From Pontederia crassipes (Eukaryota; Streptophyta; Magnoliopsida; Commelinales; Pontederiaceae): DNA of 64,000 bases. Below are positions 32,061-57,596 of the stretch, in pieces. A program made the translations under genes and the position numbers. Below the pieces are notes generated by a model. That model did not search any database, was not told where the DNA came from, and saw nothing but the letters and a program-made list of their open reading frames with translations. The stretch covers positions 38,333,171 to 38,397,170 of the forward strand of contig CM060194.1 of NCBI GenBank assembly GCA_030549335.1, given 5' to 3'. Numbering within the stretch: position 1 is the first letter of the stretch; each line of letters starts with the position of its first letter.

Positions 32061-33224
32061 TATCACCCTCCTAATCCCGTTGCAACTCCACTACTCATAG
32101 CTGCTGTCGAAACTCGACAAACTTGACTCGTCCCAGTGCTTTGGTCAGTATATCCGCCAGCTGATTGTTGGTGTCAACAAGATGAATATCCACCTTCTCT
32201 TCATCAACATATTGATGTACAAAATGATACCGTGTGTCAATATGCTTGCTTCTCTCATGATGTATTGGATTTTTACTGAGTGCAATAGCCGATTTGTTGT
32301 CGACCAATAGCTTCACTTGTGATGCTTCTTTTCCTGTTAATTCACCGAGGACACGAATGAGCCATATGCCTTGACATGCTGCTGCTGCACTTGCTATATA
32401 CACTGCCTCACATGAGGAAAGTGCAATCACTTTCTGCTTTTGTGACATCCAGCTAATCAAAATCGAGCCCAAAAAGAAAATAAACCCACTGGTGCTTTTC
32501 CTATCATTAATGTCTCTGGCATGATCATTGTAGCTGAAACCCACCAACTTAGGCTCAGCAATTTGTGATTCACTATACCGAAAACCATAATTGATGGTCC
32601 CTGCCAAATACCGAAAAATTTGCTTCACGGCTGCCAAGTGCTTGGTTGTAGGAGCCTCCATGTACCTGCTCACAATCCCCACTAAATAAGTTAGATCAGG
32701 CCGTGTATTGATGAGATAATGCAGACTTCCAACCATGCTGCGATATCTTGTTGCATCCACAGGCTCACCTTCTCCCTTCCTATTGAGCTTAAGTCTACTC
32801 TCCATTGGGGTGTGACACGACATCTGGCCATCCCTGTATTCTCTAATAATTTATTAGCAAATGCACTTTGACATATGGTAATCTCACCTTTCTTTTGGCA
32901 GACTTCAACTCCTAAGTAGTAGCTCAGCAGGCCAAGATCACTCATGCTGAACTTCTCTTTCATTTCAGCCTTGAATGCTTCAATGTCTTCCTTGATCGGC
33001 CCGGTGATGATGAGATCATCAACATACACACCGACTAGCAAATAATTTTGCCCCGACCCACATCTGTACACAGCATGCTCTAGTGGATTCTTCATGAATC
33101 CTAACCCAAATAGCTCCTTGTCAAGCTTGGCATTCCAAGCTCGTGATGCTTGCCGCAATCCATAAAGCGCCTTCCTTAACTTCAACATTTTAACGCGATT
33201 GTTGCTGTTGATAAAGCCAGGAGG

Positions 33225-36200
33225 CTGCTGCACATACACCTCTTCCTCCAAATCTCCATTCAAGAAAGCAGACTTCACGTCCATATGATGTACCTACCAG
33301 CCACCATGTGCAGCTAGTGCGAGCAGCAGCCGCACAATCTCCATTCGCGCCACTAGTGCAAATACTTCCTCAAAATCTACACCTTGACATTGTGCATTCC
33401 CCTTGGCGACGAGACAAGCTTTATGTTTGACAATATTTCCCACCAGATCTTTCTTGACTTTGAAGACCCACTTCAAACCTATCGCCTTGTGTCCTGGTGG
33501 GAGCACAGCAAACTCCCATGTCTTGTTGTCTTGGATAGATTCCATTTCTGCCTTCATTGCTTTGCGCCACACGTCTTCCTCCAATGCATCTTCAACACTT
33601 GAAGGTTCCTCAACTGCAAGTAGACACATGCCGCCGTAGTCATATGCGGTGATTTCTTCGATGGTGTCAAGCAGGTTCTGTAGCGTCTGATATCGCTACG
33701 GTACTCCCTTGGAGTCATAGGCACCATCCGTCAACGGTGTCGCGAACCTGATTGCTAGTGTTGCAACCATTGGTGTTGATGGAGATTGTGGCTACAACGG
33801 AACATCATCTACATGTGTTTCTACTTCCTTGACTATGGTGAAGTACTCAACATCAAACGAGGCTGATGGGGCAGCTTCACCATTCTAATCGCTCCAGTCC
33901 CACGCATGGTGTTCCTCGAACACCACATCACGTGTGACATGCACCTTCTTTGTCACTGGTTCGTACACCCTGTAGCCTTTCGTTCCTCGTTTGTACCCAA
34001 GAAATGCCATGGGCACGAATCTGTGTGTGAGCTTGTTGATGCCAGGCCCGATGCGCTTGACGTGGGCGATGCACCCGAATGTCCGAAGATGCTGGACATT
34101 AGGCCTCCGGTTGCACCAGGCCTCTATCTTCCTCTCCAAGCATCTGGTTGGTGCACGGTTGAGAATGTAGACGGATGTCATCACCGCCTCGCCCCAGAAA
34201 TAGGCCGGCATGTTCTTGCTCTTCAGGAGGCAGCGCGCCATCTTCACGACGGTGTGATTTCGGCACTCCACAACACCATTTTGCTGTGGCGAGTATGGCG
34301 TGGTGGTGAAGTGCTTGATGCCGTGCTCATCGCAATAGGCTTAGAACTCCAGTGAATTGAATTCGCCCCAAATCTCCAAATCTAAATCTCCATTTTGCTC
34401 ACATACACCTCTTCCTCCAAATCTCCATTCAAGAAAGCAGACTTCACGTCCATATGATGTACCTGCCAGCCACCATGTGCAGCTAGTGCGAGCAGCAGTC
34501 GCACAATCTCCATTCGCGCCACTGGTGCAAATACTTCCTCAAAATCTACACCTTGACATTGTGCATACCCCTTGGCGACGAGACGAGCTTTATGTTTGAC
34601 AATATTTCCCACCAGATCCTTCTTGACTTTGAAGACCCACTTCAAACCTATCGCCTTGTGTCCTGGTGGGAGCGCAGCAAACTCCCATGTCTTGTTGTCT
34701 TGGATAGATTCCATTTCTGCCTCCATTGCTTTGCGCCACACGTCTTCCTCCAATGCATCTTCAACACTTGAAGGTTCCTCAGCTGCAAGTAGACTCATGC
34801 CGCTGTAGTCATATGCGGTGATTTCTTCGGTGGTGTCAAGCAGGTTCTGTAGCGTCCGATATCGCTACGGTACTCCCTTGGAGTCATAGGCACCATCCGT
34901 CGGCGGTGTCGCGAACCTGATTGCTGGTGTTGCAGCCATTGGTGTTGATGGAGATTGTGGCTGCAACGGAACATCATCTACATGTGTTTCTACTTCCTTG
35001 ACTATGGTGAAGTACTCAACATCAAACGAGGCTGATGGGGCAGCTTCACCATTCTAATCGCTCCAGTCCCACGCACGGTGTTCCTCGAACACCACATCAC
35101 ATGTGACATGCACCTTCTTCGTCACTGGTTCGTACACCCTGTAGCCTTTCGTTCCTCGTTCGTACCCAAGAAACGCCATGGCATGGATCTGTGTGTGAGC
35201 TTGTTGATGCCAGGCCCGATGCGCTTGACGTGGGCGACGCACGCGAATGTCCGAAGATGCTGGACATTAGGCCTCCGGTTGCACCAGACCTCTATCTTCC
35301 CCTCCAAGCATCTGGTTGGTGCATGGTTGAGAATGTAGACGGATGTCATCACCGCCTCGCCCCAGAAATAGGCCGGCATGTTCTTGCTCTTCAGGAGGCA
35401 GCGCGCCATCTTCACGACAGTGTGATTTCGGCACTCCACAACACCATTTTGCTGTGGCGAGTATGGCGTGGTGGTGAAGTGCTTGATGCCGTGCTCGTCA
35501 CAATAGGCTTAGAACTCCAGTGAATTGAATTCGCCCCAAATCTCCAAATCTAAATCTCCATTTTGCTGCACATACACCTCTTCCTCCAAATCTCCATTCA
35601 AGAAAGCAGACTTCACGTCCATATGATGTACCTGCCAGCCACCATGTGCAGCTAGTGCGAGCAACAGCCGCACAATCTCCATTCGCGCCACTGATGCAAA
35701 TACTTCCTCAAAATCTACACCTTGACATTGTGCATACCCCTTGGCGACGAGACGAGCTTTGTGTTTGTTCCCACCAGATCCTTCTTGACTTTGAAGACCC
35801 ACTTCAAACCTATCGCCTTGTGTCCTGGTGGGAGCGCAGCAAACTCCCATGTCTTGTTGTCTTGGATAGATTCCATTTCTGCCTCCATTGCTTTGTGCCA
35901 CACGTCTTCCTCCAATGCATCTTCAACACTTGAAGGTTCCTCAGCTGCAAGTAGATACATGCCGCTGTAGTCATATGCGGTGATTTCTTCGGTGGTGTCA
36001 AGCAGGTTCTGTAGCGTCCGATATCGCTACGGTACTCCCTTGGAGTCATAGGCACCATCTGTCAACGGTGTCGCGAACCTGATTGCTAGTGTTGCAACCA
36101 TTGGTGTTGATGGAGATTGTGGCTACAACGGAACATCATCTACATGTGTTTCTACTTCCTTGACTATGGTGAAGTACTCAACATCAAACGAGGCTGATGG

Positions 36201-37862
36201 GGCAGCTTCACCATTCTAATCGCTCCAGTCCCACGCACGGTGTTCCTCGAACACCACATCACATGTGACATGCACCTTCTTCGTCACTGGTTCGTACACC
36301 CTGTAGCCTTTCGTTCCTCGTTCGTACCCAAGAAACGCCATGGCATGGATATGTGTGTGAGCTTGTTGATGCCAGGCCCAATGCGCTTGACGTGGGCGAC
36401 TCACCCGAATGTCCGAAGATGCTGGACATTAGGCCTCCGGTTGCACCAGACCTCTATCTTCCCCTCCAAGCATCTGGTTGGTGCATGGTTGAGAATGTAG
36501 ACGGATGTCATCACCGCCTCGCCCTAGAAATAGGCCGGCATGTTCTTGCTCTTCAGGAGGCAGCGCGCCATCTTCACGACGGTGTGATTTCGGCACTCCA
36601 CAACACCATTTTGCTGTGGCGAGTATGGCGTGGTGGTGAAGTGCTTGATGCCGTGCTCGTCACAATAGGCTTAGAACTCCAGTGAATTGAATTCGCCCCA
36701 AATCTCCAAATCTAAATCTCCATTTTGCTGCACATACACCTCTTCCTCCAAATCTCCATTCAAGAAAGCAGACTTCACGTCCATATGATGTACCTGCCAG
36801 CCACCATGTGCAGCTAGTGCGAGCAACAGCCGCACAATCTCCATTCGCGCCACTGATGCAAATACTTCCTCATAATCTACACCTTGACATTGTGCATACC
36901 CCTTGGCGACGAGACGAGCTTTGTGTTTGTTCCCACCAGATCCTTCTTGACTTTGAAGACCCACTTCAAACCTATCGCCTTGTGTCCTGGTGGGAGCGCA
37001 GCAAACTCCCATGTCTTGTTGTCTTGGATAGATTCCATTTCTGCCTCCATTGCTTTGTGCCACACGTCTTCCTCCAATGCATCTTCAACACTTGAAGGTT
37101 CCTCAGCTGCAAGTAGACACATGCCGCTGTAGTCATATGCGGTGATTTCTTCGGTGGTGTCAAGCAGGTTCTGTAGCGTCTGATATCGCTACGGTACTCC
37201 CTTGGAGTCATAGGCACCATCCGTCAACGGTGTCGCGAACCTGATTGCTAGTGTTGCAACCATTGGTGTTGATGGAGATTGTGGCTACAACGGAACATCA
37301 TCTACATGTGTTTCTACTTCCTTGACTATGGTGAAGTACTCAACATCAAACGAGGCTGATGGGGCAGCTTCACCATTCTAATCGCTCCAGTCCCACGCAC
37401 GGTGTTCCTCGAACACCACATCACGTGTGACATGCACCTTCTTTGTCACTGGTTCGTACACCCTGTAGCCTTTCGTTCCTCGTTTGTACCCAAGAAATGC
37501 CATGGGCACGAATCTGTGTGTGAGCTTGTTGATGCCAGGTCCGATGCGCTTGACGTGGGCGATGCACCCGAATGTCCGAAGATGCTGGACATTAGGCCTC
37601 CGGTTGCACTAGCCCTCTATCTTCCCCTCCAAGCATCTGGTTGGTGCATGATTGAGAATGTAGACGGATGTCATCACCGCCTCGCCCCAGAAATAGGCCG
37701 GCATGTTCTTGCTCTTCAGGAGGCAGCGCGCCATCTTCACGACGGTGTGATTTCAGCACTCCACAACACCATTTTGCTGTGGCGAGTATGGCGTGGTGGT
37801 GAAGTGCTTGATGCCGTGCTCGTTGCAATAGGCTTAGAACTCCAGTGAATTGAATTCGCCCC
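33225..37862 (-). repeat. Fourfold tandem array of an integrase/RT segment
   Basis: Four head-to-tail units of about 1.16 kb: 33225-34370, 34371-35537, 35538-36700 and 36701-37862. Each unit spans the last half of integrase (ECRNHTVVKMARCLLKS, FLGY(K/E)RGTKGYRVYEP) and the first part of RT ([27 protein letters not shown]). Units are mostly above 95% identical by eye. A recurring junction (GAATTGAATTCGCCCCAAAT) joins each RT start to the next integrase end. Shared variants group the RT halves of units 1-2 and 3-4, but the integrase halves of 2-3 and 1-4, a chained mosaic. Confidence 0.9.
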
Positions 37863-39492
37863 CCCCCGATCAGATCGGAATGCTTTGAGCTTCCCACCTT
37901 GCTTCGTCTCGGCCAATGCCTTCACGCATTTTAATGCCTTGAAAGCTTCATCTTTTGTTGCGAGCAGCTCTACCCACATGTAACGGGAGTAATCATTCAC
38001 TATAAGTATAAAATAGCTCTTACCACCTGGCCGCAAAGATCGATGTGGAACAGATCCAGGCTTCGCTCACCACGATGTGCTGCTGCTTGTGAGAACGGGG
38101 CACGCTGCTTGCCCAATGCACACCCATCATAGAATTCTTCCAACCTCTCGACCAGAGGAAGACCTTCCACCATATGCTTCAATCCCAGCTCTCGAAGAGC
38201 TCAGAAATTCAGATGACCATAGCGTGCATGCCACAGCCATGCACGATCATTGATCTTTGCCATCAAACACACTGGGGCTGCAATGTGGATCTTCAGCAAG
38301 TACAGGCGATTGTGGGCATGTGGTGCACAGACCAGTAGTGTATGTTTACTATCGAACACACTACAAAATCCATCCTCCAGCTCGACTTTGCACCCCCCTT
38401 CTTCCAACTGCCCAAGGCTCACGATATTGCTATTTAATTTTGGTATGTAATACACCCCAATGAGTACCTTGTGGCCGTGATTCCTCGTCTGCATCACCAC
38501 TTATCCGAGGCCGCAGATCTCGACGACAACCCCATCTCCAAAATGTACAGATCCGCGCACACTCTAATCGAGTGTGGCGAGTGCGGATCTACACCCCGTC
38601 ATGTGATTACTTGTGCCAGTGTTGAGCACCCACTTGTTGTCGTCATGGTCCGTCAGATGCACCTTGTTCTCGTTAAGGTGCACAAAATGCATCATTGTGT
38701 GCTCCTCAAAGGTTGGCGTAGCTACCAGCGGCACCGACGATCTGTGCCCCTCAGTGGTCGCCGTAGCCATCAGCAGCGCCGGCTGCGGAACCTGGTCCTC
38801 CATCCTTGCAACATGAGCCTCCTCCTTGTGATCACGCCATGGCTTCCTGCACTCCTTCACCTAGTGTCCATATATGCCACAATTGTGACATTTGCCTCGA
38901 CGGCGCGGCTTGCCATCGGTGGTTGACTTTGCTGCGGTATCACGACCATCAGGTCGCGCTCCGCCCTTCGCCTTTCCTTGGACCGCCTTGTCGCTGCTCG
39001 ATGATGATTCTGACTAGGGCTTCTTCTTGTGCTTGGCCAGCCAATCCTCCTCAGCGAGAAGGAGACGCCCAGCCTTGTCGGTGATTATGCTGATGTCGAA
39101 AGGATCCTCCGCTGCACGTAGTTGCCCCACCAGCTCCTCAACCGAGATCGTCTTAAGATCAAGCAATGTCTCGATCAAAAGAGCGATCTGTGAATACCGT
39201 GGTGGCACAACGTGTAGGATCTTCTTGATGACATGCACTTCCTCCATCGTCTCACCAAGAGCCCACAAATTGCTTGCAAGCCCGGCGATGCGCATGGCAA
39301 AATCATCGATAGGCTCGCCATCCTTGAAGCTGATGTTCTCAAACTCCTTCAGCAACCTCTGGGCGTTAGCCTCTTGCACACGAGCAACACCCATGCGCAT
39401 CACCCATATTGTTTCCCAGGCCTCTTTTGCTGTCTTCTTCATTGCAAGAGTCGACCGCATATCAGCCGGCATTGTGCGAAGAAGAGCGGCTA

Positions 39493-42323: not shown

Positions 42324-42716
42324 TGATATTGATGTCTAGAAGAAATCGAGAATTAAATAGTCAAATTGTAATAAGAAATCACATACAGAGAAAGACACAC
42401 AAATTTTATGTGGCTCGGAGATTATCTCCTACGTCAACGACCGTCTCAACTGTTTCGTTACAAACATTGCTCACATATCTCTCAATATGGTGCATAATCA
42501 CCATCGGATATAAGCCTTGAGTAACAACATAGGATAATCGAGTATTTATCATGATCTCACCATAACTCCACATCTAACAAATAAGATAGTTATGATAATC
42601 ATTCAATCTCTTCGGATTATAGTTACAAGAAAGTTACAATATCTCATATTTTCCTTACTATAACTAACAACAAATTAGTTATGTCCAAATCAAGTTCCAC
42701 CTAACTAACTCCAACA
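42324..42716 (-). repeat. Outer Copia LTR, right copy
   Basis: 393 bp, the 5' LTR in element orientation; starts TGTTGGAGTTAGTTAGGTGG on the minus strand and is followed almost directly by gag. Confidence 0.85.
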
Positions 42717-44029
42717 ACATTTATATGATAGTGATCATTAGAACTAAGGGTCGTTTTTAAAGTAAATATGGATATGATAAGGTATTCAAACCATCTCTTT
42801 GATGGCTATTTCAGTTATTAAATTTTTCGAGATAAATTGATAATTAATCCATGTAATTGATGCCTGAGGCAACCATGTGGAATGAGCTTATTGTGTAATA
42901 GCTCTTTACTTTAATCTTTTTAGCCTTTGCTTGGAAACAAGAAACAATTCAAGTTTGGGAGAGTTTGATCATCACTTATTCTACTCATTTTATACATAAG
43001 GCGCATATTATTTTTGCCACCTTTTTGCATGAGAATTCTTTCTAATTTAAATATATGAGCACATTAGTTAATAACTTTGGATTAGTCCATAGTGGTTTAA
43101 CAACCTTTTGAAATTTGAATGAATAGGGAGAAAAAGGGAGAATTAAAGGGAAGGCAGGAAGGCTTGAAAAGGGGGAGGATGTTAGAGAAGAAGGAGAGAC
43201 GAGAGGATAGAGATTTGGGAAGGAAAGAATGAAGACAACTTTGATCATTTTGTTTATGCCAATGTTTGGCTAAAAATATTTGTTCCTTTATGGTGTAATT
43301 GTGTAACTGTTGTGATTTGATTTCCATTTTGTCGTCTTCATGGACATCTACTTAATTAAGTTGCACACTGAATTGTGAATGATTTTGACGCATTTTGACA
43401 TTTCTTATGATCGATAATTGACTCTATTTGTTCTATCTTGTCGAGAGAAAGGGCAGACTACATTTTAAAACATTAGCGATATTATTCTTTGATTGTTCTT
43501 TTAAACTCTAATTGATCACATTGTGAGACGAGAGTGAATAATGTTGGCACTTGTCTGAGAATAGATTTTTATGCTAGGATTAGGAATCATATTAATACAA
43601 AAGATTGAGAGATCAACAATTACATGATCAGGACCTAGAGATCGATTGATCATCAAATTCAATTTTCATCCGGCTTAGCCTCTATCATTCGTAGAGAGAT
43701 CGATGGATGATGGAAGAGAGTAGATTGGATTCCATGTTAAGCATCGAGAGATCACTTACTCTCAACGGGAATCATATCAACAACACTGACCAATTCATCA
43801 TAGGGGACCTTCTTATTCATCTGAGTTCCTAGTCTATTAGTTATTTCTTACTTATTCCTCGTTATTTGTAGTCGTGATAATTTGAGATATATTAGTTGGG
43901 AGTTAATATAAGTCAATGGGGTTACGCCACTCGTGGTTTCTACTCTAGAGTATATTTTAATTTAAATGACATTTAGCTGGTGTGAGAAATCATAACTTCT
44001 AAAGTTTGCATCAGCAACATCCATAAGTT
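42717..44029 (+). other. LTR-like flank, possible continuation of the Athila-like relic
   Basis: No gene. A CAAGTTTGGGAGAGTTT word at about 42950 resembles CAAGTTTAGGGGAGTTT at 26928, and the GA-rich then AT-rich texture (43100-43990) is like Athila LTRs. This suggests that the Copia nest split an older Gypsy element. The inference is weak because the flanking duplication at 27013/42716 is not clean. Confidence 0.35.
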
Positions 44030-44559
44030 AAGGAAGGGGATGACCTCATCATATGCGGTAACAACCCTCAGTGGCGATGACTTTGCACTAGGTGGCTACA
44101 TCCGAATGGATGACCTCACACAAGAAGGAAATATCCTTTAGTGGAGATGACCCGCACATGGTGGAAACATTTGTATCAGTCGAAGAAAGGCCTTACCCAA
44201 GAAAGGGCAGGTGCCTTCTTCAGGGAAGTACGACAAACAATAGACTTCTCATCTAGGTAACCATGATATACCTCCATTTACGTCTTATATCTTTATTAAC
44301 CTATTAATCTATCTATTGATCACAAGGATCATTCATGTGGACACCGAATAGATTCGGTCATCTGATTCTGATACTTCGCTATATTCTGTCGTTCGATAAC
44401 AGATCCAGAATCAATCGACCATTTCTACTAGGCAGAACCGTAGATCGTTGCAGAGGTCGTTATGTTTCCAATATAAATTACATCTAACACTAACTAGCAT
44501 CTTGAGGAAAGTGAGCATGATTCATAAGCCCTATTCCGTTATAATCATCACAAGAGTCA

Positions 44560-44885
44560 GGATAAATTACACGAATCGTCTCTCAATTTTGAGTCAATTT
44601 TTAAGTGGTCCCCAACTTTAATTTATAACCAGAACATTCCTCAACTTTGAGTTGATTTCTAAAAGATCCCCAACTTTAATTTGTATCAAGAAAGTTCCCC
44701 AACTTTTATTTTCTTACACGATTAGTCCCCTTGATCGTTGATAGTGATTTTTTTGGTTGCCTTGCGTATGTGGCTGCCACCTATGCTGCTTCTCACTCAT
44801 CCACATCACTAGGGAAAAAAGAAAATATAAATCATCTACGTCAGGAGGGAGGCCAGCCGGCGCCCCCTATGCAAGCTCGCACGTC
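44560..44885 (+). repeat. Pack-MULE left terminal inverted repeat
   Basis: Pairs with 45845-46118 through GATCGTTGATAGTG, CTTCTCACTCATCCA, AAAGAAAATATAAATCATC and the GAGGCCAGC region. Longer than its partner because of an internal duplication of the TCAACTTTGAGT..CCCCAACTTTAATTT segment. Confidence 0.85.
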
Positions 44886-44892
44886 GATGAGT

Positions 44893-45560
44893 TCACAAGG
44901 GGCCAGAGCCCCCCTCTTCTACCTCGCGTGTGGTGAGGAAGAAGGGCTGACACCCCCCCCCCCCCCCCCCCCCCTCCACGTAAGCTGGGGTGTCATAAAA
45001 CATGTGGAAGAGGTCATTGTTGCGGATATGCTCAAAGATGGCAGAAAGACCAAAGTCAGAGACTTTGAGGTCGCCTTTCACGTTAATGAGAAGGTTCTCT
45101 GGATTGAGGTTGCAGTGGAAGACGCCACGGGCGTGGCAGAAGTCAACAGTGGAGATCAGCTGCTAGAAGTAGCTGTGGGTGACATCCTCCCAAAGCTGCC
45201 CGTTTGGGATGCGGGAGAAAAGATCGCCGCCCTGCACGTACTCCATGACGAAGTAGATCTTGGTCTTGGTGGCCATTACCTCGTGAAGCTGGACAATGTA
45301 CGAGTGGCGGGACGCGCCGGAGGATGGTGATGTTGCCCTTGATGTGGGCGGCGAGGCTGACCTTCACGCTCCTTGTCCGGAGCCTTGATGGCCACCACCT
45401 CCCAAGTGCGCATGTTCCATGCGACGTAGACCTTCGCGAAGGTCCCATGCTGAGCATCCTCCCGACCTCGAAGTGGCCTAAGAGGAGTCTGCCTTCCTTC
45501 CTGGACCTCTTCTCGGCTGCCTTTGTCACCGCCATTGGAGATCGGCCATTCCGACCGGAG
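44893..45560 (-). pseudogene. Captured CIPK (CBL-interacting protein kinase) fragment
   Basis: The minus strand holds the N-terminal half of a SnRK3/CIPK-type Ser/Thr kinase. Starting near 45534 it reads MAVTKAAEKRSRKEGRLLL, then [88 protein letters not shown] and TPAYVEGG. The ATP-binding Lys and DFG are recognisable. It is not functional: there is a frameshift between the glycine loop and the AIK region, another before VQLHEV, an in-frame stop after HSYF, and the catalytic HRD is replaced by HCN. The activation loop end runs into poly-C. The NAF regulatory domain is absent. CIPK genes are often intronless, so genomic capture or retro-capture cannot be told apart. The donor gene should lie elsewhere in the genome. 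Confidence 0.87.
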
Positions 45561-45844
45561 AGGGCGAAGAAGCTCGCAACCTTGCAAGCTTCCTCTAATC
45601 ACTCGACAAAACTTTTGCTGCTATGGTGGCAACGACTGCAAGAATGGAAATGCCTCGTGTGCCCTGAGCTCGCACAGGGGGCGCCGACCTCCCCTCTTCT
45701 TCCTCGCCGTGCACGAGGAAGAAGGGGAGGACCGGCCCCCCTCGCGAGCTCGACACGTCTGCAAGCTCGACACGCGGGAAGGAAAAAAAGGAGGACGGGG
45801 GTGGGGGTGGCGGCGTAGACCCCCCTCGCGAGCTCGTCGACGTG

Positions 45845-46118
45845 TGAGCTTGCACGCCATCGAGCTAGCACAGAGGGCGTCAGCTGGCCTCCCTTCTAAC
45901 GTGGATGATTTATATTTTCTTTTTTTTTTCCTAGTGACATGGATGAGTGAGAAGAAGCTTAGGTGGTGGTCACTTATGCAAGGCAATCAGTAAACCCACT
46001 ATCAACGATCAAGGGGACTAATAAAATAAAAGTTGAGTGACGTTTTGATTACAAATTGAAGTTGAGGAACAGTTTAGAAATCGACTCAAAGTTAGAGAAC
46101 GATTCGTGTAATTTACCC
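45845..46118 (-). repeat. Pack-MULE right terminal inverted repeat
   Basis: Inverse of 44560-44885, beginning near the GCAAGCTC words and ending TTCGTGTAATTTACCC. Confidence 0.85.
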
Positions 46119-47395
46119 TAAGAGTCGGGAATTCATAGTCACTTCCTATTTCCATGTCATGTACTAGTTCATTCATAAGATGAAACAATTAACTTTCTAG
46201 CATCCATAATATTTGAGTAATCATCACTTTTCATGAAGCACCATTCGTGTCCATCAGCAAACTACTTAGCAAAACATACTAATGAGACCTTAATATCAAG
46301 CACTTCTAGGTATCATCATAAGATAGGAATTATAACCTAACTTCAAGACCTTAAACTTGCATCCTCGTATGTACATAATCATCATATAAAGTCTAAAATC
46401 ATGTCATTCATGGCCATCAAAATCAGCATGCTAATCATTCCAATCATTCATTATATAAGTAGTTATAAGCATAACATATCCTAAAGAAGTGGAGAGCTCA
46501 CCATATGCGGTAACACCCCTAATGGAGATGACCTCGCACTAGGTGGCAACGACCATATAAATGACCTCACACAAGATGAAAACGCCCCTCGGTGGAGATG
46601 ACCTCACACTTGGTGGAAACATTCGTATCAATGGGAGAAAGGCCTTACCCAAGAAAGGGCAGGTGCCCTCTTCAGAGAAGTACGACGAACAATAGACTTC
46701 CCATCTAGGTAAGCATGGCATTCCTCAATTTACGTCTTTTATCTTTATTAACCTATTAATCTATCTCTTGATCACAAGGATCATTCATGTGGACACCGAA
46801 TAGATTCGGTCGTCCGATTTTGATAGTCCGCTATATTTTATCGTTCGATAACAGACACCTAATCTAGATTGATCGACCGCTTCTACTTGGCAGAATCACA
46901 AGTCATTGCGGAGGTCTGTTTCCAATCAATTTTTGATAACATAGCATTCTACAAATAATCTAAATTACATCTAACACTAACTAGCATCCTGAGGCAAGTG
47001 AGCATTCCGTTATAATCATCATAAGAGTCATTGGGAATTCATAGTTACTTGCTATTTCCTTATCATGTACTAGTTCATTCATAAGTTGAAACAAGTAATT
47101 TTCTAGCATCCATAACATTTCAGTAAACATCCCTTTTCAGTAGCATTAGCATAAAGCACCCATTCATGTACATCATCAAACTACTTAGCAAAACATACTA
47201 ATAAGACCTTACATCAAGCACTTATAGGTATCATCATAAGATGGGAACTATAACCTAACTTCAAAACCTTAAACATTCATCCTCTTATGTACACAATCAT
47301 CATTAAAAGTCCAAAATAATGTCATTCATGGTCATCAAAATTAGCATGCTAATCATTTCAATCGTTCATCGTATAAATAGTATATAAGCATGTAA

Positions 47396-48329
47396 GAAAG
47401 ACAATAATTCATGGCATCATTCTACCCTTCATCTAACATGTACCTAGGCCTAAACCATCCTTAGATACCATACTAAAACCCTCTGAAAACCCCTTATAAC
47501 TCCTTTAAGCCTAGTTTTTCCGTTGCTTTCTTCGATGGATCAAGCTCTAGTCTTCCTCCTTTGTCCTGCGTTGTCCACTTGTTCAATGCCTCCAAAGTGT
47601 CCTCCAAGGCCCTCTGGTCGAGCCCACCATAATGAAGAGGTAGCCACAACAATGGTGGATGAGAGGGATGAGAGAAGATGAAATAAAATGAAGAAAATGA
47701 AGTAACAATTGGATTTTAATAAGGAAAAAAAATGGGAGGTTGTTCCCTCTGATTCCCAAGAGTCAAGAAAAGGAAAAATTTCCCAAATTTCCAAGAGTCG
47801 TGAAGTTACAGAGGTATCCCAAATCTCCAAAAGTTGGAGTGAGAAAACATTAGGCGAAATCAAATTTGTCCTCTTCATCTCATGGGTCATAAAGATGAAT
47901 GATCATCACAATATTTCAAGGGTTGTAGTGTGACAAAAGGAGTCAAAGTTGAATTTGACTTCTCTCTTTATGAAAATCCTAATCATGAAAATCATCCTTA
48001 AAAGCATGCATAATCATCAAGAAATTACCCATGACATAGATCCCTAATTACACACCTTTTTGACGATCTCTTCGTTTTATCTTCACTAAATTATGTTCTG
48101 ATTGTGTCCTCCTTGTAATGAGGGAGAGAGAGATTAAAATTGATCTCGTCATCCTTTTGTTCGTTGTACTTTCGGACGTCCGAGAGTGTTTCAATCATTT
48201 GGTAGAGTGTCAGTTGAGGTCACCAATCGGTTTGCGTCTAATTTTGAATGTCCGATAGTCCGACGTCAGCATTATAAAAAGATTTAAATTTTTACAATTT
48301 TTTATGTGTTACATAGAGGATCTTGTTTG

Positions 48330-48387
<58 letters not shown>

Positions 48388-48567
48388 AAGTAATATGAAA
48401 CTAAAAGTTATAGCGTCCAACAAATATTAACACTTGAAAGATAGTTATGTGAGTGCATATTAATTTTAATAAACTCGCATTGAAATATATAGAGGTTGAT
48501 ATAATTATAAGTATATAAGTGGACAAAAAGAAAATCAAATTATTGATGTTATTAATTTGTTCTTTAA
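47396..48567. other. Gene-free stretch with (TTA)n microsatellite
   Basis: No host gene supported. A (TTA/ATT)n microsatellite of about 17 repeats lies at 48331-48382. The region 47500-47900 has GA-rich texture like LTR leader DNA, but no ends can be set. Confidence 0.5.
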
Positions 48568-48832
48568 GGTTGCATTTGAAGTAGCTCCATGACTAAATAA
48601 GCTTAATATCAACTCCAGCTTTATGCAAAGAACAAAGGATTGTTTGGGGAGGCTTCACCCAAAAGCAATGTTCATAAAAAGCATGTTGTGAAGAAAATGA
48701 GACTACATCTGCTTTGGAGTGTGGCCTAGTGAATTTTGTAAAAAAAAAAGTATCTACATTGATTTTTACCAAACACCAATTTAGAAAACGCAAGCTTTTT
48801 TAAGTCCCAGAAAAGCTATCTCAAATACAGCC
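48568..48832. mobile_element. Candidate MITE with GCATTTGA-type inverted ends
   Basis: Left end GGTTGCATTTGAAGTAGCT pairs with the inverse of 48811-48832, GGCTGTATTTGAGATAGCT, giving an element of about 265 bp. A further related word (AAAAGCTGCCCCAAATGCAG) follows near 48938, perhaps from a second copy. No target duplication seen. AT-rich, non-coding. Confidence 0.4.
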
Positions 48833-51800
48833 AAAATGTGTTATGAACCAAGGAAATGAGAAGAAGTTATTTTTAAAATTATCACGAAACATCAAATAAG
48901 AAAAAAAATTCATCTTGCTAACAAAGTAACCTAGAAAAGCTGCCCCAAATGCAGCTAAATTTGCATTTGATAATACTTTGCACACATACTGCCGTCAAAA
49001 AAAATTGAACGTAGATTGCTGTTATTTGGTGTAGCACTTGAGGAAGATGTGAGAAAAAAATAAAAAAAATTAATTAAACTTGAGATCTAATTCACTGGAT
49101 TATGAAAATTAACTGAATTATGCATTCATTATTGTTAAGCGCAGCCTAGCCATTTGGTACCAGAATAAAATAAGAACAACATTTTGTTCCTACTTTTTTT
49201 CACCAAACAGTAACTTTTAAAGTGCATGCCTCAAAACAACGAAAAAATAAAATAAATGAATTCCTGTTCAACCCAAGAACAAGATAGGTCTTGGGACAAC
49301 GTAGAAGATGCCAAGCAGTGTAGGAACTAAAACTAATTCCTACATCCACATTCATTGGATTTGAGATCTCAATTCAATTGGATTATGCATTGTTTAATCG
49401 CCAAGTTATGCCACAAGAAAATCCATGATGATGGAGACCTATTTAAATAATCTTTTATGTTTGCTTCTCAAACAATTTGGTGGCGGTGTTTATATTTAGA
49501 GTTCAATTATATTCATGGAAATGGTCACCGTCTCCGACGTGTCTGCACAGTGGCTAAAGTGGCATATGTCCAATGCATTGGCTTGTGGCTTGCACAGGTA
49601 ACATGTTACCAGACAAAATAAACAAGGGGTCCATTGTAGCCGCTCCTTTTTAATTTTTATGGACCGTAGAATCATTTAGATTATTATATACGTTAATCTT
49701 CCAAGTTAACTACTAACTTTAGTTTTTTCAATTATGAGTTAAGATTTGAGTGAAATATTTTTTAGCCCTCGTGTTGTATCATAAATCTTAGTTTGAATGA
49801 CTGGAATGGTATTTGCATGAGCTCTACTTTTCTTTCTTTTTTTTTTACAGTCGTATGTCAACTTTTGATGTTAAAGTACATAGAAAAAGTCTGTCCTCCT
49901 TCCTTTTATTTTGGGTCAATTAAACAACATAAAAATAAGCTTTAATGGAAGTTTTGATTTTTATTTCACATCTATTCTCAACTTGTACTTTTATCTAAAA
50001 AGAATTATCAATTTAAATTTATTACAAATATAAACCTCGTCATTATTTCAGGGGAAAAAAACTGTTATCAAGTGTTGTCTCATTAATTTTCATTATGATA
50101 CATTTAGACTTTTATGAACAACAAAAGTACTATTATTTTCATTGATATTGCATAAAATTTAAAGGGTCTTAGTTGAGAATCGTTGATGAAATTTACTCAG
50201 ATTGGGAGGTGAGTGAAACCAGTCAAAGATAAATAAATCCCGGTCCATACGCAGTTGGAAGTAGGAAGCGTTTCAAATTTCAATCGACCTTGTAGGAAAA
50301 TAGGCACACATTGTATCTAACGAAGACCTTGACCAGATACATGACGTTTGAGTTCTCTAGAAATCGAGAGAGAGAGAGAGAGAGAGATTGAAGGTGGAAT
50401 GGAAGAAAGCCACGGCCACTGAGGAAAGGGGGGAGGCAATTAATGGTGGTGAACAGTGGCGTATTGGAGCTTCCAACTCAACAATGTTTGGATCTTTTGG
50501 TTTGTGGGGGGATTCTCAACTCCGAAACATATCCACACAACGCGCGAGGTCGCCACGCGCCTTTGTCAAAAAGGTTATCTAGATGACTTCATTCATATCT
50601 CTCTCTCTCACACACACACATATAATGACCGGTCGCTCTCTCTCTCTCTCTCTCATATAATGACCAGTTGCTACCAAACCTCAATTATTTTTCTTCCTTT
50701 TCCTGCCACACTCCCTCAATCCCAATCTCCACAAGGACCACATCTATTCACGAAGAAAATAAATTCTCATATTTTTTTTTCATCAAAAGTGATTTATTTT
50801 CTCAAATGTTTTTTTAACAAAATATTCATAAATTCTGTAGAGTTTTTTAGTAGAATTTTGAGCTGAGTTGGGCGAGTTTTAGGAGCTGCCAAGAAAATTA
50901 TTCTGGTGTGTATGTAGGTAATTTTCCTGAGTTTTTTTATTTTATTTTCCAATGAGTTGATGTCAAAATCTTCACACATGATATGCCTATATTATTATCT
51001 TGCGAAATATATGACTATAATTTTGATAAAATAAATGGGTTGTAGGGCTATAGGAAAAAAGGGTATAGAGCACCTAATTCAATAATAGTATATTTTAAGA
51101 GGCTGAAAATTGTGTGAATTTAAAGTGAATTTATATATGTGAACTGTCGTTCATCTATGAATTAGTGATAATCTTAAATATTTTGTAAATTTATTTTAAA
51201 AAATATTTATAAAAGAATATTATTAATTTATGAATCGTCTATTTTGAGTCTACACATTTAATGCTAACCTTTTCTATAGGAAGATGCTGATCGCATAAGT
51301 CTATTTGTACTTCTATGTAATTATTTCACTCTCTATTTTCATTATAAAATTGATAACCCAATTTCCCTTCCAAACTGTTTATTATGCTGAATGCAACTTT
51401 TTATGGTGCTTATAATTTTAAATCAAAATGCAAAAAAACCTCCAAAAAAGGTAGTTTTGCTTATATTATAGTGGACAAAAAAATTCATCATCTTTATGCC
51501 TCACGGAAGATATCCATGGAAACAGGAGGCGCTCACGGTTTCAAGCGCATTACACGAATATTTTCTTCTTTTTTTTTTCTCTAATAGATGATGTTTACAA
51601 CAATAATTATTAATTAATCAATTAATTAATTAACCTGAGCATTATTTTACCCCCTCCAACAGCTTTTGTCCCATTCGGTTAAAGAAATGTTTTCCAGATG
51701 GATTTGTGGCCGAGTTGTTGGAGACTCGGAGCTTTTATGATTTTATCATTTAATTATGCCAATAAGTTGGAGCCAATGGAAATAATTAATCCACAACTTT

Positions 51801-52900
51801 ACAATAAGGTAATCTTACCAGCTAATTCTTTTTTTTAAAAAAAAGTTAGAAAGGAATGGTCACCATGTTACCATGTGCTTTCCTTCTTAATCAACATTAA
51901 TTAAAAAAAAATATCATAACGAGACGGGCTCGTAAGTAATGTTAAAAATTCTAGAATTAATTTAAACAAAAGGAGTCCCATCACGATCAAATCCACTAAT
52001 AACATTTTAAACATGATTTTACTTTTATTATGTTATCAAATCAGTTTATTAAGCATCATTAGTTAGGTATATGTAAGCCGTTCGTTATGGTTCAAGTGTA
52101 TCCAAAAAAATAAAAAAAAATAAAAAAATAAAGATAAAAGGACATGTCAAAATACATTCCCGTAATATACTGCATAAATCGTATCATATTTCATGTCAGA
52201 TTAGTTGAACGATTTTCCATATATTTTGCAAGTTAAAAAAAATGAGGTATCAGTTATTTCTTCGTATCATTTGAATTTTAGAGCATTTTCACTTTATTTA
52301 TCTTTTAATGTTTCTTTTCTTTTTCCCTCCAAATATCTATATTTTGGCCTTTTTTTTAAAGAAAATAAAAATATAAAAACTACTACCATGGCGTTTAAAA
52401 AATAAAAAGGGATTAAGAAAGCACATCCTTTGATTTTCAAAGAATACTTTTTCCTTTTCTTTCCAAAAGGTAATATACAAACTTGTTTTTTGATGGCAGG
52501 AAAATAAAATAAAACAAAGAAAGAAAATAAAATTTAGCAGGAATTTTGATGGCACGACAAATGTGTCAGGTAAAAAAAATGTCAGATGCACAATGCAAAA
52601 TATAGATACAAATAAATATTAATGATATAAATAAAATAATCTTATTATTTTTTTGCAATTGAAATTGAAATGATAATAATTATGCATTCATTTGTTGCAT
52701 AGTTAATTTACATTTAATAATGAAAATATTGAATGAAAAGTTATTGAACCACTAAAAAAAGGAGATTTCTCATTTGATCTCCTATAGTAATAATTCGAAA
52801 TTAAAAAAAAGGATAAAAATCAGTATATTTTTAACCATTCAAAAGAAAAAGAAAAAGAAAAAGAAGAGAGGAAACAAGAGGATATTTCGGAAAGATCCTC
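48833..52900. other. Intergenic DNA upstream of ferritin
   Basis: No gene, element ends or RNA gene recognised. Contains (GA)n at 50366-50387 and CT/CA arrays at 50597-50620 and 50635-50654, where the word ATATAATGACC is repeated on both sides of a CT tract. Otherwise AT-rich. Confidence 0.5.
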
Positions 52901-52949
52901 CTAGCGGCCACCCACCAATCCGGGGAGCCTGCCACATCCGTGAGACGAC

Positions 52950-52963
52950 CACGAGCCCTCCAC
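52950..52963 (+). promoter_or_regulatory. Iron-dependent regulatory sequence (IDRS) of ferritin
   Basis: CACGAGCCCTCCAC fits the known plant IDRS consensus CACGAGNCCNCCAC at every fixed position. In maize and Arabidopsis ferritin promoters this element mediates repression when iron is low. It lies 215 bp before the ATG and about 90 bp before the TATA-like box, where a promoter element is expected. Confidence 0.85.
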
Positions 52964-53051
52964 GCGCTCATCTATTCCGCATCAATCTCCACCGTCCAAG
53001 CGTCGCGCATCCACCCTCCCCCACGAACCCCTAGCCGCCCACCTCCCCCCT

Positions 53052-53177: not shown

Positions 53178-55806
53178 ATGCTCCTTAAGGCTTCTTCCTC
53201 TGCTCTCTCGCTCCTCGCGCCGGCCTCTTCCGAGGCTTCGCCGCAGGTGGCCGCTCTGTTCAGCGGCGCCTCCCCCTGTGTCTCTGCCTCCTTGAGCCTT
53301 CCCAGGGGGAAGAAAGCCAGAGGCCGCGCTGTCGTGACCTCTGCTGCCAGCGGACAGGCGATTACGGGGGTCATCTTTGAGCCCTTCGAGGAGCTCAAGG
53401 GCGAGCTCTCCCTCGTGCCCCTCGGCTCCGACCAGTCCCTCGCCAGGCAGAAGTACACGGACGACTGCGAGTCTGCCATAAATGAGCAGATCAAGTGCGT
53501 TTATTTTCATAATAATAAAAAGATCAACTTTTAAGTTTGTTATCTTGTTTATTTTCATAATAAAATGGAACGCTTTTAACTGGGATTAGACTTTCTTTTA
53601 AAGTTGTCCATTAACTGATTCATGTTCTTGAAGAAAAGAGACTGGCAGCTTTTTGCTTTTAGATTCATGTCGGGACTTGTGTTATAAAGATTTTCTTTTT
53701 GGTATAAAAAAGCTTCTTTTTGGTGTTCTGTTCGTTCAGGTTCTAAAAAAAGGATATTTTGCCCTTAATCAACGTATTGTCTAATCTTCTCCTTAATTTT
53801 GTTTCATTTTTCAAATCTTTTGATGAATTTGATTAACAAAATTCTGGGGAAAAGATGTAATATCTGTTTATACTTCTAACTTCATGTTCTGTCCTGTTTC
53901 TTGTGTTCTTTGATTCCAGCAACTTTTGCTGATACTATGGCTTTTCTTGTACTATTTTAATTTCAGTATTGAATACAACGCTTCATATGTGTACCATGCT
54001 CTGTTCGCTTACTTTGACCGTGATAACGTCGCCCTGAGGGGGATGGCCAAGTAAGCTCATGATTTCATCATAGATCTGGTGTTTTTTTTACACTTTCTCA
54101 CTTAATCAAGATATTAAGCGCCGATATGCTGCAATTTCAGGTTCTTCAGGGAATCAAGTGAAGAGGAGCGTGAGCATGCTGAAAAATTGATGAAGTACCA
54201 GGTATTTACAGCTGAACTTCTTTAGTTGTCAATTCTGAGCAGTAAACTTGTGATATAATATTCTGAAATGTTCTTATTTTAACTGAAAACTGAGTGGGTG
54301 TTTCATGTACCTAGAACAAAAGAGGAGGGAGAGTGAAGCTTCAGACTCTGGTATCGCCCCTGACTGAGTTTGATCATCCGGAGAAAGGCGAAGCTCTCTA
54401 TGGTTAGTCCAAATCCACGTCTCTCATTTAATAAGAGAACTTTATCCTTGGGAATCAGTGTGGTTAGGTTGTGCTTACAGCTGTTCTGCAAATAGTGCAG
54501 ATTGTAGATTTGTCTGTTTCTTTGGATGCCATGAAGTCGTAATCTGATAGTTTCATCGTCCCAACTCGTTAGGAAGTACAACCGAACCAAGATGTTCTGA
54601 CATAACTGGGAGAGACTAAGATGTCTGTTTGCTTGTAGTTGAATCGAATTGAATTTAATTATTATACTTCATTCATGTACCCTTCGAATGGTGTCAGTTA
54701 TGTATTTTTTTCGGTGAACCACCTATTTTGTTATCAACATAGATCGATGCTTACTAGATATGAGTTTTTTCATGCTTGTTCTTTTTGCTAGACCACATGT
54801 TTTAAAAGGCCATTTCATGTATTCTTTTGAAGTTATTTTCTTCATTATTTCTTCTTACAATCATAATATCTCGTCCAGCAATGGAGCTGACATTGTCTCT
54901 GGAGAAGCTGGTAAATGAGAAACTACTCAAATTACACGCTGTAAGTAATAATCATCTCTATGCCTTCTAGTTAAGCAAGCATTAATCATCTTCAATAGGA
55001 TCTTGTGTTATTTGCTTCCCACATTGTTTATTAATTTGTTTTGATTTAAATGCTTGAACAGGTGGCGGAAAAGTACAACGATGTGCAGTTACAAGATTTT
55101 GTTGAGAGTGAATTTCTAGGAGAGCAGGTCAAATCTATTCCCTAATATTGATGATGTTCTGTTCTAAACTTTGTATATTCATTGGGCACTTTCTGGAACT
55201 CAGGACATGAATATATTAATGTACTAAAGGACCAACATTATAAGTTGTAAAGTTCCAACAAATAATTAATTCAAGTAGTGCAAATAATTGTGGAGAGTGG
55301 ACAGATGTACTGCTTGAAAGTGTTATTATGCAAAGGGAGAATAATAATAACTATGTTTATCTTGTTACAGAAGCATTTACTTTCTTCCATCTAGTTATCT
55401 TGGTTGTGGCTGACGGATGCAGTTTTAGTATAGTTGGCTCCTGATAAGATGTTCTCATCTTTCTACTGGTTGTTCAATTTCAAATTGCTGAAACAACCAA
55501 AAGTTAAATCACTGTTTAATGCCAACTTCTCTGATCCTTTACTTGGAGCAATACATAACGATTCTTTGCCAAGAATGTCTGACTCTTGTCTTTCCAATAC
55601 AGGTAGAAGCCATCAAAAAGATATCTGAATATGTTTCTCAGCTGAGAAGAGTAGGAAAAGGACATGGTGAGGCCTTCTGAAATTATTAATCTTGCTAAAT
55701 TTCTGAGTCAGATCTGTAATCTTTTATGGGGTTTCATTCTTTCTACTCCTCTACAGGGGTTTGGCATTTTGATCAGATGCTTCTCCATGAGGACGATGCC
55801 GCCTAA
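53178..55806 (+). CDS. FER: Plastid ferritin, eight exons
   Basis: Iron storage protein: 24 subunits form a shell that oxidises Fe(II) and stores it as a mineral core in plastids. Exons: 53178-53494, 53967-54050, 54141-54201, 54315-54402, 54879-54940, 55062-55127, 55603-55666 and 55757-55806. All introns are GT-AG and phases match, giving 263 aa, the usual plant length; eight exons is the plant ferritin pattern. Residues 1 to about 50 form a Ser/Ala-rich transit peptide, followed by the plant extension peptide ([16 protein letters not shown]), then the four-helix ferritin fold. All ferroxidase ligands are present: E108, Y115, E142, E143, H146, E192 and Q226. A run of acidic residues suits H-type activity. 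The start is the first ATG and opens a proper transit peptide. Iron control is expected through the IDRS at 52950. Isoform number cannot be assigned. Confidence 0.97.
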
Positions 55807-56123
55807 GTGATCAGGGGAGCTACACTTCTGTTCATCATAGTCTTTAGGTTGTTCAACTAGTTGAGCTCTTTTCTGTAACTTCCAAGGTCCTGCTCCTATG
55901 CGTTTCCTTCAGTGTCATTATGAATCCGTGTTAGATTATGTTGTCAAGGAGATCGAGTGTGACTGGGAAGAAGTGTAAAACTCTTCTTGCAATAATTTTC
56001 TCAATGTGAGCAAAGCCAATGAGCACTGTGTGTTAATATTGTTCTGATGCCATGCTGCCCTCTATAAACTACTTTGTCCCAAAGAGAGCACAAAATTGGA
56101 AAATTATTTTTTTAATTAAAATT
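55807..56123 (+). other. Ferritin 3' untranslated region and spacer
   Basis: Downstream of the stop codon the sequence is T-rich, with an AATAAT word near 55989 that may serve as polyadenylation signal. The LTR element begins at 56124, so it is inserted within about 320 bp of the ferritin stop. Confidence 0.5.
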
Positions 56124-56315
56124 GAAGGAATTAGTACAATAAATAAAGGGTATTATCGGACTATCTTGGAATAGAAGAACGAATTGTCGGAGATTGTTTT
56201 ATGTTATTTTGAACACGGTCATCATCGGAGAGCATTAAATTGCTTTTGTAGTTTTATCCATGCCAAAAAGCATGGTGGCTGGTAGTTGTCAAGTCCATAC
56301 AATTCATTTTCAGCA
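56124..56315 (-). repeat. LARD-like LTR, left copy
   Basis: Begins TGAAGGAATTAGTACAATAA and shares TTTATCCATGCCAAAAAGCA-like and CTGGTAGTTGTC stretches with 61628-61949. Confidence 0.75.
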
Positions 56316-56523
56316 ATCTTCCATTTACGTGTAATGAGTTGATTCCTATATATTATGTTCATTTTTTATAAGTGGATCGTGTGACTCATGAGTACATCCA
56401 CAATTAAAAAATTATGATATATCAGAGATATATAGTCACTCAACCATTTGAAAGTTTATACTATAATTTATTAGGGATATATAGTTGTTCGATCAATTTG
56501 AGAGTCAAAAGTTATGACCACGT

Positions 56524-57588
56524 TAGCAGTGGCACTCGACCTATTCAGGGTTCGACTGACCCTTGCTTCCATCCCCGCCCCGAATTCTTGGAGCGAGGGA
56601 AATTTTATCCCCCGCTCCGATTTCTGCGGGGCCTCGAACTCAGGCGGGGACCTCAATTCCTGCTCTTAGAGATCTAACCTCATCGGCCACCGAGAAGGAC
56701 GAGCTTTGCCCTTCGCCAAGAAGAACGATTGTCTTCGCCCTTCGCCATGAAGAACGATTGTCTTCACCCTTCGCCATGAAGAACGACTATCGTCCTCTGC
56801 CGAGACATTGGTCGTCACCCTTGATCGAATTGGAGTACCACCGCCCTTCGTGGAGGTCCAAGCATCCACGTCTAGCCACCCGTCATCGCAAGCGCTCCCT
56901 CCTCCAGCGTCCGGCCATCGTCACGAGCGTCGACATCCTCGATGGTGATGAACGTAGAAGTTGTTGTGCTTATTCGAAAGCCGCCAACGTCGTGGAGGCT
57001 GCCGATGTTGGAGATCGAAACGCATCGAGCGCTTGCACTGCCCTCCTCACTGGTGATGAAAGTGGAAGTTGCCGCGTCCGTTCGGGGGACCGATGTCATG
57101 GAGTTCGAAGGCCGTCGACGATGGAGGTCGAAACCGTAAAAACCGCCCGCTCGGTGACGCCCTCCTCACTGGTGCCGTTCTTTAGTAGCGAGCGTCATCT
57201 TCGCCATCCCCTCGCTAGTGACAAAGATAGCTGGCCATCGATGTCATCGCCGTCCGGAAGGGGGCAGCTTGAGGAGAATCAAATGTTAGGGTTAGAGAGG
57301 AAGAGAAGAATTAGGAGGGAGAAATAATAGGTTTTATATATAAAATAAAATAGACAGTTGAGATTTAATACTTTAGACTAGGTGATTGATGATTTATAAT
57401 AAATTATATAGATAATTTGGGTGCGGAGATTCGGGAATCCGACAATTCATCTCTCCCCGAACCTTGAAGGGGGGGAGGCAATTTGCCCTCCATACCCAAC
57501 CCCACGGGAGTAAAATTCTTCGAATTCGGGTCACCGATCGATAATTCTCTACGGGGCCCATGGGGGTCGGGGAATATTGTCATCCCTA
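56524..57588. mobile_element. hAT-like non-autonomous element nested in the LARD
   Basis: A GC-rich 1065-bp block in AT-rich DNA. Ends TAGCAGTGGCACTCGACC and, inverted, TAGGGATGACAATATTCCCC are short and imperfect. The 8-bp flanks GACCACGT (56516-56523) and AACCATGT (57589-57596) match at 6 of 8 bases, differing only by transitions, as an aged hAT target duplication would. Inside is a ~30-bp tandem repeat (CCCTTCGCCATGAAGAACGA, about three copies at 56708-56795) and a 254-codon open frame (56563-57327) with no recognised domain. No transposase. Confidence 0.6.
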
Positions 57589-57596
57589 AACCATGT

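Follow-up and report, generated by a model that had tools for sequence, protein, structure and literature searches.

A non-autonomous Mutator-like element (MULE) of the Pack-MULE type has, with very high probability, taken up a GC-rich 5' segment from a CIPK gene without introns. It lies at a tandemly repeated intergenic site, is flanked by a 9-bp target-site duplication (TSD), and its captured part has decayed as a pseudogene with a methylation-like CG bias. The element occupies positions 44560-46118 of the window, i.e. of the whole stretch of 64,000 nucleotides analysed here (C12 38,333,171-38,397,170, in an assembly of 1.13 Gb in 43 contigs). It measures 1,559 bp and has inverted ends. A preliminary description had proposed a Pack-MULE with a CIPK fragment, and this was supported by the TIR family, the TSD and an intact donor elsewhere. 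Beyond that description we report the donor pair, the pattern of decay and additional captured CIPK pieces on C17, C12 and C33. The element is a textbook Pack-MULE and ordinary biology, with one small peculiarity: other transposons of this genome copied pieces of other CIPK family members. It offers a clean case of gene-fragment capture in which the sequence reveals the donor pair, the site of insertion and decay of the methylation type.

Structure of the element and its insertion site

The long inverted repeats announced in the preliminary description were recovered as two pairs of arms. Positions 44643-44879 aligned with 46093-45861 at 81% identity over 242 columns, and an outer pair, 44559-44657 and 46119-46020, at 80% over 101 columns. 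The left tip reads GGATAAATTACACGAATCG; the right tip, read inward, is GGGTAAATTACACGAATCG. Within the left terminal inverted repeat (TIR) a 58-bp tandem duplication is located at 44582-44706. On the other side of the element, a stretch beside the CIPK piece (45666-45779) also matched at many other loci and was taken as MULE subterminal sequence. Together, TIRs, subterminal sequence and CIPK piece span the entire element apart from roughly 75 bp at the junction on the left. As had been noted before, the interior is GC-rich: in 200-base windows the GC content inside the element was 0.50-0.66 versus a window mean of 0.37. A Pfam match was absent from the three element ORFs tested; the element carries no transposase, as is characteristic of a Pack-MULE. 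The features are compiled in Table 1.

Table 1. Coordinates of the element, its parts and its insertion site (window positions).
Feature	Position	Strand	Remarks
Left target-site duplication, CAAGAGTCA	44551-44559		7/9 match to right copy
Left terminal inverted repeat and GC-rich subterminal part	44560-44902	+	tip GGATAAATTACACGAATCG
22-base C run	44953-44974		adjoins junction of left TIR side and captured CIPK piece
Captured CIPK fragment	44978-45650	-	85% to C2:7143775-7144465, 84% to C1:30680258-30680952
79-nt run identical to C2 donor	45224-45302	-	inside otherwise decayed copy
GC-rich subterminal sequence	45651-45860		45666-45779 also matches many other loci
Right terminal inverted repeat	45861-46118	-	ends in ACGATTCGTGTAATTTACCC
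Right target-site duplication, TAAGAGTCG	46119-46127		7/9 match to left copy
Unoccupied relative of insertion site	47005-47060		next tandem unit; outside element

The element sits inside tandemly repeated intergenic sequence with a unit of about 0.9 kb. The neighbouring unit has retained an unoccupied version of the site (CATAAGAGTCATTGGGAATTC at about 47020-47040), and both units align on either side of the insertion point; the right flank of the element is devoid of 3 bases found in the unoccupied unit. Target duplications of about 9 bp, claimed previously, were identified as the two near-matching 9-mers of Table 1. When 200,000 random pairs of 9-mers were drawn from the window, an agreement of 7 or more occurred in 0.25%. 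We count the two mismatches out of nine bases and the 3 missing bases of the right flank against our explanation. The tandem units of about 0.9 kb extend over window positions 44029-47391, and many chromosomes carry parts of them at around 75-85% identity.

An allelic empty site was sought on the presumed partner C11. With the queries 46119-49000, 42700-44559, 55800-58200 and 48600-53000 none was found, and the other matches of these queries look like dispersed repeats. The stretch 48600-53000 had no other match above approximately 200 bases in the assembly, C11 included. This search, which ignores very common words, suggests that the window region may be without a counterpart on C11. At 32691-39472 the window also contains broken coding pieces of a Copia-type retrotransposon (RVT_2, Retrotran_gag_2).

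The TIR family in the genome

The terminal 20-mer GGGTAAATTACACGAATCGT matched the genome 1,039 times with at most one mismatch (532 + 507), whereas the reversed control gave 0 + 0 matches. The TIR family is dispersed genome-wide. Searches with the arms yielded 3,037 and 2,645 first-look candidates, of which 40 each were scored. After identical cores had been dropped, 25 loci with paired tips were available, i.e. the window element and 24 others. The sister copies anticipated in the preliminary description thus exist with paired TIRs: at 15 of the 24 a duplication of 9 bp (8 loci) or 10 bp (7 loci, one of these duplications being a TAT microsatellite) was present with at most one mismatch. A 9-bp duplication with two mismatches was seen at 2 of the 24 and an 8-bp duplication at none. 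At 7 of the 24 loci no duplication was recognisable, a point against our explanation; these comprise L012 and L013, which have shared flanks and are not independent. For sister loci with several tip pairs, the pair with the best 9-bp agreement was used. In several sisters the outer tip is followed, about 200-230 bp further in, by another tip-like site; in the window element a single tip was recognised at either end. Because of the long TIRs, the 9- and 10-bp duplications and the tandem-TIR-like sisters, we placed the element in the Mutator superfamily.

The genome is rich in MULE transposases: of 2,217 candidates 150 matches were scored, those listed exceeding the cut-off. When the transposase matches were compared by eye with roughly one in ten of the 1,039 tips, no autonomous element was recognised. 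The nearest transposase-tip pair among those compared was on C13, 7.3 kb apart, with the transposase outside the tip. Movement of the element would have relied on a MULE transposase supplied in trans.

Pack-MULEs have reportedly been described genome-wide in rice. Plant Pack-MULEs (PMC4858842 and PMC13317346) resemble the element in their long TIRs, 9-10-bp duplications and absence of a transposase, and likewise in the decayed copy of a GC-rich 5' stretch from an unlinked gene of the host. Nothing essential differs; in the present genome three different CIPK genes have contributed captured pieces. PMC3310237 describes MULEs whose TIRs are multiple and mostly in tandem. The second tip-like site of several sisters and the 58-bp duplication in the left TIR of the window element are similar to these, whereas the single recognised tip at each end of the window element is not.

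The captured CIPK fragment and its donor

The homology to CIPK was confirmed, but the limits given for it earlier, 44893-45560, had to be shifted to 44978-45650. The copy starts in the donor 5' UTR, continues to roughly codon 192 (TPAYV included) and ends beside the 22-base C run. The search for the donor succeeded as foreseen: intact CIPK genes are located on C2 and C1, both as uninterrupted intronless ORFs (488 and 487 aa), and tips of the element TIRs were absent within 1.5 kb of either gene. The C2 protein contains a kinase domain (PF00069, E=6.3e-74) and a NAF domain (PF03822, E=2.4e-24); CIPK23 and CIPK24 are its best relatives of solved structure. The GC content of the captured donor part is 0.63, compared with 0.52 in the rest of the donor CDS and 0.32 in the donor 5' flank; the CIPK copy today has 0.55. 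GC-rich capture by MULEs is reported in PMC4858842, and the high GC of the captured donor part is in line with such a bias.

CIPK matches recur on the chromosome pairs C1/C2, C3/C4, C5/C6, C9/C10 and C13/C14, which suggests that the paired chromosomes are homologues or homoeologues. In a tree from all CDS sites the element joined the C1/C2 pair with a bootstrap of 100 and C2 itself with 98 (200 replicates). With purine/pyrimidine coding, the grouping of the element with C1/C2 versus C5/C6 was supported by 96, and the element was placed outside C1+C2 with 67 (200 replicates). At the 36 sites which differ between C1 and C2, the element agreed with C2 at 27, nine of which fall in ten adjacent, badly aligned UTR columns (146-155), and with C1 at 9. 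C2 as the only donor was considered, yet this assignment is weakened by the purine/pyrimidine tree, by possibly convergent C>T sites and by the misaligned UTR columns. For these reasons we name the donor as the C1/C2 pair only; it would be the ancestor or one member of this pair.

How the CIPK piece entered the element can be outlined. It would have been captured as DNA through gap repair or template switching, models mentioned in PMC8277862 and PMC4858842. Since the donor has no introns, these cannot serve to distinguish a DNA from an RNA route of capture. A second copy of the window capture was detected neither among 31 scored candidates nor among the best 40 of 177; therefore, movement after capture is hypothetical. 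A multicopy form of this capture was considered but not seen among these matches. The only other scored place that combined CIPK-like and TIR-like sequence was the C17 locus, and its CIPK piece was 79% identical to C6:25.38 Mb versus 70% to the window copy. Multicopy status does not define Pack-MULEs; according to PMC8277862, about one third of them are multicopy.

A special form of our explanation is that a plain MULE came first and that a later break in it was filled with CIPK sequence, in which case the CIPK-bearing form never transposed. It would account for the fact that no second copy of the capture was seen among the scored matches, and it has a precedent in animals, where single-copy Pack-TIRs are mostly explained by gap filling (PMC8277862). 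The window element resembles those animal elements in having host DNA between TIRs and in being apparently single copy, and is unlike them in its plant genome, MULE-type TIRs and 9-bp duplication. However, the donor is on another chromosome, and neither an empty nor a MULE-only allele was found. We treat this order of events as a tentative option of some weight within the Pack-MULE explanation.

Decay of the copy

The captured piece has changed extensively. Compared with the inferred ancestor, 65 of 555 sites differed, and 50 of the 65 polarised changes were C>T or G>A. These 50 changes were distributed over CG, CHG and CHH contexts as 39, 8 and 3 (sites available 139, 63 and 160, respectively). 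Compared with C2, differences were present at 46 of 155 CG sites versus 27 of 478 others (P=7e-14). The branch of the element, 0.129, was about twelvefold that of C2, 0.011. Such CG-biased changes would be the expected mark of methylated-CG deamination in a silenced element; the element, judged by its substitution pattern alone, is presumably CG-methylated.

At the codon level, 42 changes relative to C2 were non-synonymous, including the stop Q130*, and 16 were synonymous. The exchanges R147C and D148N hit the HRD motif and remove its catalytic Asp. In addition, the copy contains three gaps, 12, 1 and 5 bp long, and one inserted base. A functional kinase is ruled out by the stop, the frameshifts and the lost catalytic Asp. 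The CIPK copy is dead and its coding capacity is gone. Translation of the captured piece into a chimeric or shortened kinase-like protein was also considered. One frame does still match part of the kinase domain (PF00069, E=3e-24 on 44983-45303, with one TAG read as X). Yet such a product is contradicted by the frame-breaking indels, the stop at codon 130, the missing catalytic Asp, the 42 non-synonymous among 58 changed codons and the failure of the three tested ORFs to match Pfam, and we give it next to no credence.

One part of the copy stands apart. The 79-nt run that is identical to the C2 donor exceeds the length expected under plain decay (p=0.0029 and p=0.0016 in CG-stratified permutations, for a run picked after the fact), and we count this against the Pack-MULE explanation with free decay. 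It may be due to chance or gene conversion. Alternatively, the element might be a regulatory locus from which antisense or hairpin-derived small RNA tunes or silences parental CIPK genes, and part of the copy would be kept donor-like for this reason. Besides the unchanged run (p=0.0029), perfect matches argue for this possibility: within 44900-45760, 77 of 841 21-mers and 62 of 838 24-mers are identical to the C2 CIPK gene, and 64 21-mers and 56 24-mers to the C1 gene. A precedent comes from maize, where, in a review (PMC13317346), TE-captured sequences are treated as siRNA reservoirs able to act on donor genes. However, most of the copy decays freely, and the unchanged run in the separate CIPK fragment on C17 (42 nt) is not significant (p=0.36). 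We consider the regulatory locus very unlikely. Antisense or siRNA regulation of CIPK by the element, as the preliminary description envisaged, would be possible as far as the bare sequence goes. For a decayed Pack-MULE, most likely there is no present role for the plant; at most, small RNA would silence the element itself.

Other CIPK captures in the genome

A search with the C2 gene resulted in 61 candidate places. The best 40 were scored; 48 rows represented 40 loci, and 19 of the 40 were examined. At fifteen of these 19 loci there is a CIPK gene whose open frame starts at ATG, spans 342-505 aa and keeps HRD(L/V)K and DFG. Paired tips of either TIR family described here were present at none of the 15 intact genes. 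The remaining 4 of the 19 are in MULE-like contexts: the window element and loci on C17, C33 and C12.

The C17 locus (L036, C17:17494664-17498051) carries a decayed CIPK fragment at 1489-2872, with the match at C17:17496165. Among the CIPK loci compared, the nearest to it were C6:25.38 Mb (79%) and C5:45.1 Mb (78%). It has the right end of the TIR family of the window element and GC-rich subterminal repeats; a left terminus was not found (best local score 26.0; shuffles had a mean of 26.5 and a maximum of 39). Its decay is CG-biased as well, with changes relative to C6 at 35 of 144 CG sites versus 45 of 543 others.

Pieces of a third CIPK gene are contained in the C33 locus (L073, C33:719000-721400) at 796-2277 and in the C12 locus (L072, C12:23611600-23614000) at 853-1735, with the CIPK matches at C33:720107 and C12:23612743. 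Their identities to the C6:53.8 Mb gene, the nearest among those compared with its C5 partner left out, were 89% and 86%, respectively. Both loci have a common left-end sequence and the same CIPK junction. The C33 element has inverted arms of 78% identity, and both its tips, at 796 and, with mismatches, at 2277, read GGGTTATTTCCTC, a different family. At the C12 locus the left tip was present and a right end was not found.

Thus three CIPK donor genes were sampled, one form being present at two loci, and capture recurred at least three times. A literature search that paired Pack-MULE with CIPK returned no title on CIPK capture, and a broader one listed no paper with the term Pack-MULE. With several CIPK paralogs affected, one could ask if capture prefers intronless genes rich in GC or is merely frequent. 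A further-reaching proposal is that MULEs in this genome repeatedly took kinase-coding parts of CIPK genes (three donors, at least two TIR families, four loci), that the copies jointly form a source of small RNA acting on the CIPK family, and that the 79-nt stretch is a retained targeting region. We regard this combined proposal as highly improbable.

Some minor observations were made at the intact CIPK loci. One of them (L077) shows one isolated site resembling a tip, at up to 3 mismatches. At three of the 15 (L007, L033 and L079) the fetched stretch contains an unrelated-looking inverted repeat. In L079 (C9:44705600-44707900) it lies by the intact CIPK at 249-713 and has 76% identity over 146 columns, and in L033 (C5) it pairs 111-172 with 3174-3237, again by an intact CIPK, at 83% over 64. 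The repeats of L079 and L033 are possibly remnants of other transposons.
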